Shown: positions 46,541 through 55,619 of the stretch, in pieces
Layout of the letters: the number at the start of each line of letters is the position of its first letter
Position numbering within the stretch: the first letter of the stretch is position 1
Assembly: GCF_019355395.1 (NCBI RefSeq)
Contig: NZ_CP048829.1
Location: forward strand, 930,001 to 994,000
DNA: 64,000 bases
Reading direction: 5' to 3'
Origin: Chordicoccus furentiruminis
GTDB lineage: Bacteria; Bacillota; Clostridia; Lachnospirales; Lachnospiraceae
Translations under genes and position numbers: made by a program
Notes under the pieces: model-generated
Told to the model about the DNA's origin: nothing
The model's database searches: none
Seen by the model: the letters and a program-made list of their open reading frames with translations, nothing else

Positions 46541-47473
46541 TCAACCCGCCTGACTCCCGAAGCAGTCCGGATGGAACGCCTTGGCGAATTTCTCGATCGT
46601 GTCCGCCACACGGGAGCTGGCGAAGACCTCGGGAAGGGTGACGACTACATAGTTCTGGTTCTTGACTGCGGTGACGCCGGAAAGCGCCGCGTTGCTGTTC
46701 AGGCTGTCGATCTTCTCCTGCGCTGTGGTGTCCCCGTAATCGTTGATGACGATGACGTCCGGATTCTGGGCGACCACCTCTTCCCAGCTGACGGTGTTCC
46801 ATGTCTCTGGCAGATTCTCGAACACGTTGACGCCGCCCGCATGACGGATCAGCTTGGACGTGAAATTGTTGCCCGGCGTATAGGCGCCGCCGTCCATATC
46901 GCAGTCAAAGTTAAAGACCTTCACCTGATCCTTGTCCTTCACTTTGTCCTCAATATCGGCGATCTTCGCCTTCAGCCCGTCCACGACCTCGTCGGCCTTG
47001 TCTTCCACCTGAAAGATCCGACCGAGATTGTAGAAGTCCTGATAGACATCCTCCACATCCGCCCCGAGTTTGTAGCCTTCGATGGAGGAAAGAGACATAA
47101 TGCTGAGCTCGCTGAGCTTGTCATGGGTCGCGATCGCCGTGTCCTTGTCCGAGAAGGCCGAGCTTCTGCCATAGATGAAATCCGGCTTCAGATTCAGCAC
47201 CACCTCCAGCGAGGGATACTCGTCCGCGATGACCGGGAACGCCTCGTACTCTTTCCTGTACGGCTCCGCGACCTCGGCGTTGTTGTAGCAGGTGCCGATG
47301 ATCTTGTCCCCGAGTCCGAGGGCCATCAGCTCCTCGCCCGTGTTCGGGTTCGTGCTGAGAACCCGCTCCGGCACATGCGTAAAAGTGACGACCTGATCGT
47401 CCTTCGTCGTGAGCGTAAACGGAAAGGCGCCGCCGTCCGCCGTGCTCTCCGCGCCGCTTGCGGCGTCCGGCAT
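46541..47473 (-). CDS. btuF: Cobalamin-type ABC transporter substrate-binding protein lacking a signal peptide (probably 5'-truncated)
   Basis: 310 aa in the open frame from ATG 47473. The sequence from FPFTLTTKDDQVVTFTHVPERVLSTNPNTGEELMALGLGDKIIG onward is a normal class III binding protein of the BtuF/FhuD type. It begins with what looks like the Ala/Ser linker that normally follows a lipoprotein signal. In frame upstream, seven codons read AAASSA before a TAA; no signal peptide, lipobox or ribosome binding site is present. The riboswitch aptamer ends only about 35 nt upstream. A deletion seems to have removed the 5' end, so export is unlikely. Confidence 0.8.
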   Translation of the reverse strand: MPDAASGAESTADGGAFPFTLTTKDDQVVTFTHVPERVLSTNPNTGEELMALGLGDKIIGTCYNNAEVAEPYRKEYEAFPVIADEYPSLEVVLNLKPDFIYGRSSAFSDKDTAIATHDKLSELSIMSLSSIEGYKLGADVEDVYQDFYNLGRIFQVEDKADEVVDGLKAKIADIEDKVKDKDQVKVFNFDCDMDGGAYTPGNNFTSKLIRHAGGVNVFENLPETWNTVSWEEVVAQNPDVIVINDYGDTTAQEKIDSLNSNAALSGVTAVKNQNYVVVTLPEVFASSRVADTIEKFAKAFHPDCFGSQAG

Positions 47474-47747: not shown

Positions 47748-49160
47748 TCAGTCACATTTTCTGTGTGATGCAGGGTTCCGGTCATAGTCCCGACGGCTGA
47801 TGTCGAAGATCTTCAGGAAGAAGTATTCGTCATCTGGATAGCCATAGCCCTGCCGCCTGAGTGTTTTGATCTTGTTGTTCAGTCCTTCGATCTTTCCGGC
47901 TGAGATCCGGTAAGTCGCATGGGCAATGATACCTTCAAAGTGGTTTTCAATCAGGCGGCCGAACCACCGCAGATGTCTGTTCCCTGTGGCGAAGCAGATA
48001 TCTATGGTCTCAGTCATCATCTCCGCCATGACTACTTCACTGGTCTGCCGGTACGCCTCGCTGAGTTTCTCCTTGATGAGATCCAGCGTGAACAGGAGCT
48101 CGTTTTCCGCAAGGAGCGCGTCATACTTTGCCTCATATCCGGACTTCCGGATGACCTCTTCCTTATTGAAGAGACCGCCGCCCTTTGACAACACTTTGCC
48201 CTCAGATGCTTCCTGATCCTTCCGCTGAAGGGTCGAGCGGCTGGACGTAAGGATATAGCGGGTGCGCTTGAGTGCCCTGGCTGCTTCGAGGTTTCCTTCT
48301 TCAGTGAGCCGTCTCTGCTCATCGCGCCGGACTTCGCTGACCACCTTATCATTGAAGTTTTTGACGATGTGGAAGTAGTCGAATACCGGCTGGATCCATT
48401 CGCAGCGCTCCTCGAAGGCCTCCTGGAAATCGGAATTCATGTCGCAGGCGACAGCTTCTACGCTTTCCATCCACTCCATCCCGACATGGTCAATGAAGTC
48501 GTAGACGACCTGCTTCTTCTTGCCGTGGCCGATCCAGAGGACGTGGCCGCGCTCCATGTCGATGATGTGCGTAGCGTAGCGGTGCCCGTTATGCAGCTTG
48601 AACTCATCGATACCAAGAAACTTTGCCTTATGTTCCGGCTTACGCAGCTTTTTGCCGTCAATCGTATACGCATCCTGCAGGCGCTTTTTATCGATTGCCT
48701 TGACAACGTTTTTCCCAAGGCCGGTGATCTCGGAAACCTGCTTGAGTGTATATGTTCCATGAGCCAAAAGATCCCGGGTGTACTGGTACAGTTCTTCCGT
48801 GATCCGGTGCCCATCCGCTTTAAAAGAGATGAACTGGGAATGTGTCCCGCCGCATTCCGGACACCGAAACTGGTTATGCGGAAACACAACACTGGAGAGA
48901 TTCCCGCCGATGCAAAGATGCCGCAGAGTGATCTCCGGATGCTGGTTCACATGCATCCTCGCGCCGCACTCCGGACAGACCGTTTCTTCCGGAGGGACAT
49001 CCAGCGTACCGTGGTAGCAGAAGACTTTTCTGCCGGATACCGCTTCATGAACGGTAGTCTCCGTATTATGGAAGCCATACAGGCAGCACGGAATCATCAA
49101 AAAATCTGTTGATTCTGCAAATGTGAGTTGTCCGTCAGCCTCAGGTCGGATATACTGCAT
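47748..49160 (-). CDS. ISL3-family transposase
   Basis: 470 aa. An N-terminal zinc-finger pair (CPECGARM and CPECGGTH, about 62-110), a helix-turn-helix (about 140-165, TLKQVSEITGLGKNVVKAI) and the DDE_Tnp_ISL3 catalytic domain. Acidic residues are seen in FLGIDEFKLHNG, CDMNSDF/DYFHIVK and SAGKIEGLNNKIK. AAAGGAG lies 10 nt before the ATG. Length is normal and the frame intact, so the element is probably active. Confidence 0.95.
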   Translation of the reverse strand: MQYIRPEADGQLTFAESTDFLMIPCCLYGFHNTETTVHEAVSGRKVFCYHGTLDVPPEETVCPECGARMHVNQHPEITLRHLCIGGNLSSVVFPHNQFRCPECGGTHSQFISFKADGHRITEELYQYTRDLLAHGTYTLKQVSEITGLGKNVVKAIDKKRLQDAYTIDGKKLRKPEHKAKFLGIDEFKLHNGHRYATHIIDMERGHVLWIGHGKKKQVVYDFIDHVGMEWMESVEAVACDMNSDFQEAFEERCEWIQPVFDYFHIVKNFNDKVVSEVRRDEQRRLTEEGNLEAARALKRTRYILTSSRSTLQRKDQEASEGKVLSKGGGLFNKEEVIRKSGYEAKYDALLAENELLFTLDLIKEKLSEAYRQTSEVVMAEMMTETIDICFATGNRHLRWFGRLIENHFEGIIAHATYRISAGKIEGLNNKIKTLRRQGYGYPDDEYFFLKIFDISRRDYDRNPASHRKCD

Positions 49161-49581: not shown

Positions 49582-49609
49582 AAAAAAAGGAGGCGCCCGA
49601 AGGCGCCCC
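49582..49609 (-). terminator. Terminator of the opp operon, UUCG loop
   Basis: On the minus strand GGGGGCGCC pairs with GGCGCCTCC around a TTCG tetraloop, followed by TTTTTTT. It lies about 30 bp after the oppA stop. The stretch from 49522 to 49581 holds no gene. Confidence 0.93.
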
Positions 49610-49640
49610 CCTTACGTGACCGCAGTCAGCTGCATGTTCC

Positions 49641-51494
49641 TTATTCAGCCACGGATGCAGCGGCGGAAGCAGCTTCCGCGCTCTTGCCGAACTGCGGATC
49701 GTCGTTGCCGGAATTCGATGCGAACATCTCCAGCATGTTGATCGGGTCGTTGTAGTCGGCGAGCCATCCCTCACGGGCGAAGTCGAAGTTGCCGGCCTTT
49801 CTCTCGTCGACGAAGACGTTCCACTCCTCGGTGTCGATCTCGACATTGATGCCCACCACGGAGAGGTCGCTCTGGATCGCCTGGGCGATTGCCTCGTGAC
49901 CCGTGCCGCTGTTGGTCAGATAGGTGAGGTTGAGCGGCGTCTCATCGGAGAGCATGCCGTCGTCCGTGAACTTGTAGCCGGCGTACTCGAGCAGCGCCTG
50001 TGCCGCCTCGACGTTGGCGTCGTCATCGGTGCCAGTGGTCTCCGGATAGTAACCCGTCGCGTCCTTCACCGGATAGGTGTAGGCGTCGGAGTTCTCCTTG
50101 AAGGTGCCGCCGTTGCCGTCCGCCATACCGACCGGAATGAAGGAGGTCGCCACCTTCTGCTCGGTCTGGCCGATGTTCTCGATGATGTACTGGCGGTCAA
50201 TCAGCAGAGAGATCGCCTTGCGCATCGCGTTGGCCTGATCGACGGTCTTGCCCTCGAAGATCGGGCTGTTTACGTTGAAGCACGCATAATAGGTGCCGAG
50301 GTTGTCCACGACATGGAAGTCGTCGTTGTCCTTGATGGACGCGATCTCGTTGGTCGGAACCGTATCCGCGAAGTCAAGGTCGCCGGACTGGTACGCCGCG
50401 TAGATCGCGGTGTCGTCTGCGCTCAGCATGAAATCAAGCTCCGGAATCTTGACCTCATCCGCCTTGAACCAGTTGTCGTTCTTCTTGAGAACGATGGACT
50501 GGTTGTGATCCCAGGAGGTCATCGTGTAGGCACCGTTGGTGATGTAGCCGGCTTCCGTCGCCCACGCGCCCGGGTTGGAGCCGTCCTTGTCAGCCGCCTC
50601 GACCGCCGCCTGCGGGACCGGATAGAAGGCCGGGAACGCAGCCAGATCAAGGAAGTACGCGCACGGCGCAAGCAGCTTCGCGGTCAGCGTCGTGTCGTCC
50701 GTCGCCTTGACGTCGATCGCGCCGTCGCTGTCCGTCGCGAAGGTATCCGTGAAGAGATAGGAGTAGTCCGCGCCGGTCTTCGGATCAGCCGCCCGCTTCC
50801 AGGCGTACTCGAAGTCCTTCGCCGTCAGGGCGCTGCCATCCGACCACTTCAGGTCTTTCTTCAGATGGAAGGTGTAGGTGAGGCCGTCGTCGGAGACTTC
50901 ATACGGGTTGTCGTCGTCCGCGCACTCCGGAACGAGGTTGCCGTCCTTGTCATAGGAATACAGGCCGCTGAACATGTTGACGACCATGCACGCGCCGTCA
51001 ACCGTCGTATTCAGCGCCGGATCCAGCTTCGCCGGCTCGGACGCCAGATTGATCTTCAGGACGTCGCGCGGAGCCGTCGCGTTGCGGAAATACTTGAAGC
51101 CGAAGAGGTTGGAATAGATGCCGTCCACGTCGGTCTTCTGCAGATAAAGATCGTTGTAGTAATAGATCGGGATGACCGCGCCGGTGCCCATCAGGATATC
51201 CTCTGCCTGATGCATCAGCTTCACACGCTCATCCGTCGGGATGTTGGATTTGATCTTCTTGATCAGCTCGTCGTACTCCGACCAGTCCGGCGCCGCCGAA
51301 TTGTAGCCCGCGCCCTTGTAGGTCACGCCGTGAGGTGTCGGATAGAGGTCCGTCACGTCGCCCGGCAGAGCCGATTCAGCCGACTCCGTGGCCGCAGCCG
51401 ACTCAACCGCTGAATCCGCCATCACGACGGTGGAGCCCAGCATGCCGACCGCTGTGATGCCGGCAAGGCAGAATGACAGTACTCGATTCTTCAT
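49641..51494 (-). CDS. oppA: Oligopeptide ABC transporter substrate-binding protein with circularly permuted order
   Basis: 617 aa. A Sec signal peptide (1-26, no lipobox) and an Ala/Ser/Glu linker are followed at residues 65-140 by NSAAPDWSEYDELIKKIKS through YYYNDLYLQKTDVDGIYSNLFGFKYF, which normally ends OppA/DppA-type proteins. The usual mature start (DVLKINLASEPAKLDPALNTTVDGACM) comes only at about 144. The frame then runs through the family in order to GWLADYNDPINMLEMFASNSGNDDPQFG and stops with an Ala-rich tail, so the C-terminal ~80 residues sit at the front. The start has AAGGAGG. It binds peptides outside the membrane for OppBCDF. Confidence 0.93.
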   Translation of the reverse strand: MKNRVLSFCLAGITAVGMLGSTVVMADSAVESAAATESAESALPGDVTDLYPTPHGVTYKGAGYNSAAPDWSEYDELIKKIKSNIPTDERVKLMHQAEDILMGTGAVIPIYYYNDLYLQKTDVDGIYSNLFGFKYFRNATAPRDVLKINLASEPAKLDPALNTTVDGACMVVNMFSGLYSYDKDGNLVPECADDDNPYEVSDDGLTYTFHLKKDLKWSDGSALTAKDFEYAWKRAADPKTGADYSYLFTDTFATDSDGAIDVKATDDTTLTAKLLAPCAYFLDLAAFPAFYPVPQAAVEAADKDGSNPGAWATEAGYITNGAYTMTSWDHNQSIVLKKNDNWFKADEVKIPELDFMLSADDTAIYAAYQSGDLDFADTVPTNEIASIKDNDDFHVVDNLGTYYACFNVNSPIFEGKTVDQANAMRKAISLLIDRQYIIENIGQTEQKVATSFIPVGMADGNGGTFKENSDAYTYPVKDATGYYPETTGTDDDANVEAAQALLEYAGYKFTDDGMLSDETPLNLTYLTNSGTGHEAIAQAIQSDLSVVGINVEIDTEEWNVFVDERKAGNFDFAREGWLADYNDPINMLEMFASNSGNDDPQFGKSAEAASAAASVAE

Positions 51495-51547
51495 ACTTTG
51501 TCCTCCTTATTTTCCCAGGAATCATGTCCTGTTCGTGTACGGTGCCA

Positions 51548-51577
51548 ATTATAGCATCAATTCGCCGCCTCCGTCTA
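51548..51577 (-). promoter_or_regulatory. Separate promoter of oppA
   Basis: Minus-strand TAGACG (51577-51572), an 18-nt spacer and a perfect TATAAT (51553-51548), about 55 nt before the start codon. It would let the binding protein be made in excess over the other subunits. Confidence 0.7.
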
Positions 51578-51600: not shown

Positions 51601-51620
51601 AAAAAGGCGGCGGACCGCCG

Positions 51621-51621
<1 letters not shown>
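51601..51621 (-). terminator. Short terminator after oppF
   Basis: On the minus strand CGGCG-GTC-CGCCG is followed by CCTTTTT, overlapping the oppF stop. Partial termination here plus the oppA promoter would uncouple oppA from oppBCDF. Confidence 0.6.
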
Positions 51622-52597
<976 letters not shown>

Positions 52598-52601
<4 letters not shown>

Positions 52602-53623
52602 CGCTCCGGCACCTCCATATAATTGTGATTCCTGACGTTCACCCAGCAGGACGCGAAATGGCCGTCCGGCATCCGGAGTTCCGGCGGAACGTCCGTGAGA
52701 CAGATCTTCATCGCCTCATCGCAGCGCGCGCAGAACGCGCAGCCCTTCGGCATGTTGAGCAGGTTGATCGGGTTGCCTCCGATCGGCACCAGCTTCTCCT
52801 TCATGTTGTCCACGCGGGGAATGGAGCGGAGCAGACCCTTGGTGTACTCGTGGCAGGGCCGGTAGAAAATGTCGTCCGCCGTACCTCTCTCGCAGATCCG
52901 GCCGCCGTACATGACCACGATCTCATCCGCCATCTGGGCGATGACGCCCAGATCGTGGGTCACGATGATGATCGCCATCTTCAGTTTCTTCTGCAGATCC
53001 TGCATCAGTTCCAGAATCTGCGCCTGAATCGTCACGTCGAGCGCCGTGGTCGGCTCGTCCGCGATCAGGATATCCGGTTCCGAGACCAGCGCCATCGCGA
53101 TCATCACGCGCTGCCGCATACCGCCGGATAATTCGTGAGGATACTGACGGATCCGTCTCTCCGCGTCGTTGATGCCTACCAGCTTCAGCATCTCCAGTGA
53201 TTTCTGATACGCCGCCTCGCGGGATACCTGCTTATGCGTCAGGATCGCCTCGCGGATCTGGTTTCCCACTGTGTACACCGGATTCAGCGAGGTCATGGGA
53301 TCCTGGAAGATCATGGAGCATTTCTTGCCGCGGAAATCCGCCATCTGCTTCTCGCTGTATTTCGTGATGTCCTCGCCCCGGTAGAGAACCTGGCCCTCAG
53401 TGATGTGTCCGTTCTGCTCCAGAATCCGCATGATCGAGTAGGCCGTGACGGATTTGCCGGAGCCGGACTCGCCCACGATTCCCAGCGTCGTGCCGGGGAA
53501 CAGCTTGAAATTCACGCCGTTGACCGCCCTCACCTCACCCTTGTCCGTCGTGAAGGAGGTGTGGAGGTTCCGTACCTCCAGAATCGGCGTTTTCTCATCA
53601 TTCGCAGTCCTTGCGTCTGCCAT
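52598..53623 (-). CDS. oppD: Oligopeptide ABC transporter ATP-binding protein OppD
   Basis: 341 aa. Walker [10 protein letters not shown], signature [16 protein letters not shown], Walker [13 protein letters not shown], and the C-terminal extension with [15 protein letters not shown]. Partner of OppF. It starts 5 bp after the oppC stop. Confidence 0.95.
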
Positions 53624-53628
53624 CTTGC

Positions 53629-54690
53629 TTACCTCCTCAGTTTCGGATCAAATGCGTCTCTCAGACCGTCGCCCAGCAGGTTGAACGCCAGCACGATCAG
53701 GATGATGGTGACAGCCGGGAACACCAGCTGCATCGGGTAGCTCTGCAGTCCCTGCCGGGCCGCGTTGGCCAGCGAGCCCAGCGACGGCATCGGGGCCTTG
53801 ACGCCCATGCCAACGAAGGAAAGGAAGGATTCGGTGAAAATCGCCGACGGCACCTGCAGCGCCGTCGTAATGATGATGACGCTGACGCAGTTCGGGATGA
53901 TGTGCTTCCGGATGATCCGGCCCGAGCTCGCGCCGACCGCCTTCGCCGCGAGGATGTACTCGTTGTTCTTGATGGTGAGGATCTCGCCGCGGACCAGCCG
54001 GGCCATGCTGACCCAGTACAGGAGGCCGAAGACGATGAAGATCGAGATCATGTTGGATCCAAGAGACTGGACCAGCTTGTTCTTGCTGTTCGTCAGCGTC
54101 TCGTTGAGCACCACCGAGAGGAGGATGATGATCAGCATGTCCGGCAGCGAGTAGATCACGTCAACAATCCGCATCATGATGAGGTCCACCCGCCCTCCGG
54201 CGTACCCTGATATGGATCCGTAGACCACGCCGATGATGAGCACGAGGATCGCCGCGAAGACACCGACGAACAGAGAAATTCTCGTCCCGTAGACAACGCG
54301 GATAAAATAGTCGCGGCTCAGCGAATCGGTTCCCATGATGTGAGGAAAGAGCTTCTTTCCCGTCTTTTCCATATACTTCTGTTCATTCTCCGAATACTCG
54401 AAGGGGCCGAGGTTCTTGGCGCCGCGGTCGCGCTTCCCGTCTACGCGGATGATCTCCGAGTAGCTGTAGGGGACGACAGCCGGGGCAACGACGATCGTCG
54501 CAATGATCAGAGCCAGCACGACGATGGAGGCCACCGCCAGCGGGTTCCGCATCAGCTTCCGCATTCCGTCTCTGAAGAAGGTCGTGGACCTGCTCATGAC
54601 GTCGGCCTGCTGCTTCTCCTCATCCGTCGCCTTCTCGAATTTGCTGAGATCGATCTGAAGACTCAGCGGGTTCTTCTTTGGCATTTCCAT
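53629..54690 (-). CDS. oppC: Oligopeptide ABC transporter permease OppC
   Basis: 353 aa. A long cytoplasmic N-terminus, one helix (about 45-70), an external stretch of about 50 residues and five further helices. The binding-protein-dependent transport motif EYILAAKAVGASSGRIIRKHIIPN contacts the ATPases. It forms the channel with OppB, whose gene ends 17 bp upstream. Confidence 0.94.
   Translation of the reverse strand: MEMPKKNPLSLQIDLSKFEKATDEEKQQADVMSRSTTFFRDGMRKLMRNPLAVASIVVLALIIATIVVAPAVVPYSYSEIIRVDGKRDRGAKNLGPFEYSENEQKYMEKTGKKLFPHIMGTDSLSRDYFIRVVYGTRISLFVGVFAAILVLIIGVVYGSISGYAGGRVDLIMMRIVDVIYSLPDMLIIILLSVVLNETLTNSKNKLVQSLGSNMISIFIVFGLLYWVSMARLVRGEILTIKNNEYILAAKAVGASSGRIIRKHIIPNCVSVIIITTALQVPSAIFTESFLSFVGMGVKAPMPSLGSLANAARQGLQSYPMQLVFPAVTIILIVLAFNLLGDGLRDAFDPKLRR

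Positions 54691-54707: not shown

Positions 54708-55619
<912 letters not shown>

Follow-up and report, generated by a model that had tools for sequence, protein, structure and literature searches.

The binding-protein gene of an Opp-type importer in the gut bacterium Chordicoccus furentiruminis encodes its mature domain in circularly permuted order, and related genomes carry both permuted and normal versions of the protein in the same operon position. The gene, at 49641..51494 (minus strand) of the 64,000-nucleotide stretch of DNA that was analysed (the window), has an ATG start, and its coordinates were confirmed; homology searches and profile mapping showed its 617-residue product to be an OppA/DppE-like SBP_bac_5 protein. 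We propose, with a probability of about 0.9 for the explanation as a whole, that these are functional oligopeptide-binding proteins whose chain has repeatedly been re-opened in surface loops, with the membrane tether moved to another lobe, and that many Lachnospiraceae and other Clostridia have kept this arrangement in working form. The proposal builds on the observed swapped order, its conservation, interleaving trees, purifying selection and the predicted fold; from these we infer peptide import, relocation of the tether and the route of rearrangement.

The C-terminal segment precedes the rest of the mature domain

A preliminary description of the DNA had proposed that residues 65-140 represent the C-terminal end of OppA/DppE proteins, that the normal mature start follows, and that the chain ends where the relocated part would otherwise come. 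A phmmer search against the PDB bore this out. Window protein residues 72-133 matched residues 451-512 of Bacillus subtilis DppE (i-E value of 1.3e-9), residues 139-595 matched DppE 17-441 (i-E value of 2.8e-59), and the stop codon comes soon after QFGK. B. subtilis OppA was matched in the same swapped two-part order (i-E values of 6e-64 and 0.0012). The native C-terminal segment, looked for at the end of the window protein, was absent. Both parts are thus homologous to one protein, their order is swapped, and the old C-terminal segment is gone from the end, as in a circular permutant.

The Pfam SBP_bac_5 model (PF00496) passed its gathering score (279.5 bits, cut-off 32.4) but covered only residues 189-598, and the OppA equivalog model NCBIfam NF011684 stayed below its curated cut-off (217.9 versus 947 bits). 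Since the canonical N-to-C order of the family is not kept, we regard the window protein as a permuted-order homologue, a variant rather than an ordinary SBP_bac_5 member. The limited span of the Pfam match could be read to mean that the binding protein is truncated and that its residues 68-140 belong to an extra domain, either unrelated or duplicated. This is very improbable, as the segment significantly matches the DppE C terminus, is 57-90% identical between permuted relatives, is predicted with high confidence as a packed part of the fold, and, among the loci examined, was never seen in a protein holding both an N-side and a C-side copy; we rejected it on the alignments and the absence of two-copy proteins. 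An assembly artefact in the window is harder still to credit. The window genome is a single 3.27-Mb contig, and the same order recurs in dozens of independent genomes, isolates and single-contig chromosomes among them, which excludes misassembly.

Layout of the permuted gene and its operon

All features described here lie on the minus strand. Residues 1-26 (51417..51494) form a signal peptide that lacks a lipobox and has a probable signal peptidase I site after VVMA. A low-complexity linker (residues 27-67; 51294..51416) leads to the relocated C-terminal segment (residues 68-140; 51075..51293), which corresponds to DppE 451-512 and is made up of two helices and one long strand (phmmer and AlphaFold2). 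In residues 138-144 (NATAPRD; 51063..51083) the old C-terminal end is fused to the old mature N-terminal start, and residues 145-605 (49680..51062) comprise the rest of the binding protein in native order up to the cut just past QFGK, here called site A; both were placed by alignment and profile mapping. This part includes Asp580 of the motif GWLADYNDP (49755..49757), located by alignment of site-A proteins. An Ala/Ser/Glu-rich tail of about 12-13 residues past QFGK and the stop codon complete the frame (49641..49679).

A Shine-Dalgarno sequence, AGGAGGA, precedes the gene at 51501..51507. Farther upstream are a promoter-like TAGACG-18-TATAAT, with TG ahead of the second hexamer (51548..51577), and, in the intergenic stretch behind oppF, a terminator-like hairpin (51606..51620), each a consensus match only. 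Another terminator-like hairpin just past the stop (49582..49611), with a GGCGCC-TTCG-GGCGCC core followed by TCC and seven T, was read from the sequence, outside the scan scoring. By profile matches, the permuted gene adjoins the same-strand genes for the ATPases OppF (51621..52601) and OppD (52598..53623) and the permeases OppC (53629..54690) and OppB (54708..55619), as expected for a gene of an Opp importer. The operon and ribosome binding site of the original description were found, and the gene's own promoter, also part of that description, corresponds to a consensus match only.

The absence of a lipobox, to which the preliminary description had also pointed, was confirmed for the window protein; an association with the permutation was not supported, since 45 of the 57 site-A proteins with a scorable leader do have one. 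The lipobox is missing from the window protein, its nearest relatives and a few others, which show an ordinary signal-peptide end instead, and we regard its loss, as read from these leaders, as secondary to and independent of the permutation. In the protein L033 the leader and the mature domain are separated by a long, acidic linker of Ala/Glu repeats, and L037 has a similar one.

Predicted structure

AlphaFold2 predicted the window protein with a pLDDT of 87 and a pTM of 0.84. The relocated helices (residues 72-82 and 87-103) and strand (residues 107-119) were confident, the stretch around the fused junction (residues 121-150) had a mean pLDDT above 90, and residues 1-41 fell below 50. The normal-order sister L185 was predicted equally well (pLDDT of 87-88 and pTM of 0.84 for the two proteins), with the same elements at its C-terminal end (504-551), and the two models have the same secondary-structure elements in rotated order. 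The top Foldseek matches of the window model were OppA and DppE, consistent with an OppA-like fold. Sequential Foldseek comparison with DppE gave TM scores (target length) of 0.76-0.77 for the best permuted-model matches and 0.91 for the normal sister; a lower sequential score is expected for the permuted model if chain order alone differs.

Conservation of site A and its operon position

The swapped order was found in dozens of related genomes. Profile mapping of all open reading frames assigned at least 60 distinct proteins of the first set to site A, that is, with the chain opened just past QFGK, together with three, two and one proteins opened at other sites (B, C and D, respectively). By blastp mapping of open reading frames at the relatives' loci, the C-terminal segment lay ahead of the core in 26 entries including the window protein. 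A junction-spanning query (window protein residues 93-220) gave a match extending across the junction in 27 of 397 genomes of the window genome's family, with further cases in order, class and phylum samples. Among the site-A carriers, two Proteiniclasticum species, P. ruminis and P. aestuarii, are represented by isolate genomes, and complete chromosomes carry the arrangement as well.

Nearly all site-A genes follow oppB-C-D-F, and in other genomes the same position is filled by proteins of normal order that share 54-61% identity with the window core, so that the oppBCDF-SBP operon is kept for both chain orders. The site-A C terminus is uniform: 46 of 60 proteins end exactly at the end of the profile-aligned core, mostly with FGR, FGK or LGK, and the end of most site-A relatives reads Q(F/L)G(K/R), which suggests that many site-A proteins share one origin. 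In nine close pairs dN/dS was 0.05-0.14, indicating that in the sampled pairs the permuted form is under strong purifying selection and hence in use. The earlier suggestion that it is probably used is likewise strongly supported by homology, conservation, operon context and the confident fold prediction, all of which also bear out the circular permutation of an OppA/DppE-type protein.

The aspartate of GWLADYNDP (Asp580 of the window protein) was invariant in 37 site-A proteins, and we take it to be the counterpart of the aspartate with which OppA holds the alpha-amino group of its peptide. With the motif kept and the aspartate invariant, site-A proteins most likely function, as judged from sequence, by binding peptides for OppBCDF. 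In one single-contig genome (G330; entries L176 and L131) the site-A gene is split by one stop into parts of 404 and 206 residues, either a pseudogene or a sequencing error.

Repeated switching between normal and permuted order

For phylogenetic analysis all proteins were first rotated into one common order. Permuted and normal proteins interleave in the binding-protein tree (IQ-TREE), in which site A requires seven changes, at least five of them forced by well-supported branches. In AU tests a single site-A clade was rejected (p = 9.9e-7), as was a topology uniting the nested normal proteins in one clade (p = 8.3e-8), and the tree of OppB/C/D/F alone forced five changes as well. When all states were considered, 12 changes were needed (site A, 7; C, 3; B, 1; D, 1). 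The relatives thus point to many events, in place of the single permutation that had been assumed.

The closest mixed pair consists of a permuted protein, present under two labels (L147 and L190), and the normal-order L185. In the OppB/C/D/F tree these are sisters (100/99), and the two binding proteins are mutually nearest in nearly every segment, including both edges of the core. For the relocated segment of L147, the closest sequences are those of L139 and L185, both of normal order, which argues against import of permuted ends from elsewhere. A second mixed case occurs within one genus (G410 permuted, G1570 normal).

Interleaving would also result if the permutation arose once, anciently, and exchange in the shared core by homologous recombination between normal and permuted genes then mixed the core tree. 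Both architectures do coexist within one bacterial family and one genus, and the nearest relative of L130/L184 changes from segment to segment. L147 and L185, however, remain each other's closest match at either edge of the core, the sister relationship extends to their oppBCDF genes, and the relocated segment points to normal-order proteins rather than to a permuted donor. Moreover, a single crossover would leave two C-terminal segments or none, and no protein with two was seen among the loci examined; sites B, C and D would also be left unexplained. We consider this explanation improbable, and as a whole account it was set aside, being unsupported for the best pair by segment identities and operon tree.

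The direction of the changes behind the repeated switching is ambiguous. The outgroup has normal order and the deep branches of the site-A clade are mostly permuted, and several permutations, or a single early one followed by several reversions, fit equally well. In a more specific form of our explanation, the chain would have been permuted once, in the ancestor of the site-A clade, and would then have undergone several true reversions in which the old junction was re-opened and the loop closed by a short Ser/Thr-rich linker. Besides the branch order, the uniform site-A C terminus speaks for this, as do short linkers (DSTSSAPDW, TDSAAAPEW) in nested normal proteins, where distant normal proteins have none or a long insert. 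Later re-permutations are about as good by parsimony, however, and the linker is too short to prove direction, leaving this version at somewhat below even odds. In a normal-order sister group (L015-L017, L084 and L163), the loop that corresponds to the site-A cut is enlarged by an insert of about 30 residues.

Other opening sites

Three further break points share the fusion of old C to old N terminus, each in several genomes; they are known from few lineages and mostly draft genomes. Site B (window protein residues 253|258) was found in three genomes of two genera (L193, L194 and L195). Site C (409|417-421) occurs in three separate lineages, represented by G1620, by G1161, and by the single-contig chromosome G1071 with four relatives at 71-72% identity and the normal-order G1605 nearby. 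Site D (508|522) was seen in G1081 and relatives at 76-97% identity. On the window model, every break point maps to a loop that connects predicted elements, and wherever the gene start is complete the leader stays in front and the mature domain alone is rotated.

From OppA anatomy, using an approximate alignment offset, we take the old termini to be adjacent in domain I, cuts A, C and D to lie in domain III, and cut B in domain II. On this assignment the tether would move to another lobe.

Proposed model and rearrangement route

The gene product would serve as substrate-binding protein of an OppBCDF importer, probably for peptides, with a mature domain predicted to fold like OppA/DppE. Its chain would be cut open at a surface loop a little beyond the ligand-contacting GWLADYNDP, the old C and N termini being joined where they meet, so that leader and linker would now precede the old C-terminal segment, on a lobe other than the normal one, with binding pocket and docking surfaces retained. 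In one and the same operon position, at least five changes between normal and permuted order have taken place, and other lineages show this fusion with openings at three further loops. Because the old termini lie together, the clostridial SBP_bac_5 protein may be pictured as an open ring whose break point was shifted repeatedly, perhaps reversibly, among four loops in the same operon, changing the lobe tied to the membrane and possibly reflecting selection on tether geometry; we offer this as a tentative idea, slightly less probable than not.

As a rule, natural circular permutations are inferred event by event, from comparisons of remote homologues. Here, normal and permuted versions about 80% identical share one orthologous operon position, the order has changed several times independently, and the chain opens at four sites, providing replicated natural experiments on the origin and reversibility of permutation and its effects on folding and transport, and pairs suited to direct biochemical comparison. 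Order-based domain annotation misses such proteins, standard profiles covering only part of the chain. OppA and DppE (SBP_bac_5, PF00496; PDB 8are and 8ay0) share with the window protein homology over the whole mature domain, the predicted fold, operon partners and the pocket aspartate; the window protein differs in its permuted chain, its probably displaced tether and its missing lipobox.

Glycine-betaine- and molybdate-binding proteins, less than 24% identical, are related by circular permutation at the structure level (PMC2395249), likewise a natural permutation among importer ligand-binding proteins. In contrast, the present case concerns orthologous operons and proteins about 80% identical in different orders, at four sites and repeatedly. 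In the literature searched, we found no description of natural permutation in the SBP_bac_5 family, the nearest precedent being PMC2395249, and its recurrence there appears to be previously undescribed. Circular permutation itself is known; what appears to be new is recurrent multi-site permutation within one orthologous operon position.

Duplication followed by trimming is the textbook route, as for DNA methyltransferases and saposin/swaposin (reviewed in PMC3320104). It yields the same end result and is plausible here, and a transient in-frame duplication is the most likely route; however, the tandem or partly duplicated intermediates that it predicts were not found. The preliminary description had proposed tandem duplication with loss of the outer parts, and among the loci examined we detected neither proteins with two C-terminal segments nor downstream remnants. 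A search for break-point repeats in the window gave only short (14-23 nt), mostly imperfect matches.

Other genes of the window genome

A second OppA homologue of the window genome (C1:608855-610063), 37% identical to the window protein, has normal order and a lipobox, and its Ser/Ala-rich linker is very long. An ISL3-family transposase gene (47748-49160, minus strand) lies immediately downstream of the permuted gene, with a 27-nt imperfect inverted repeat nearby (49334-49360/49431-49457). Close to this element, a Peripla_BP_2 gene of a FecCD-type importer (46541-47473, minus strand) looks truncated at its 5' end, since it has no leader and an in-frame stop lies just upstream.
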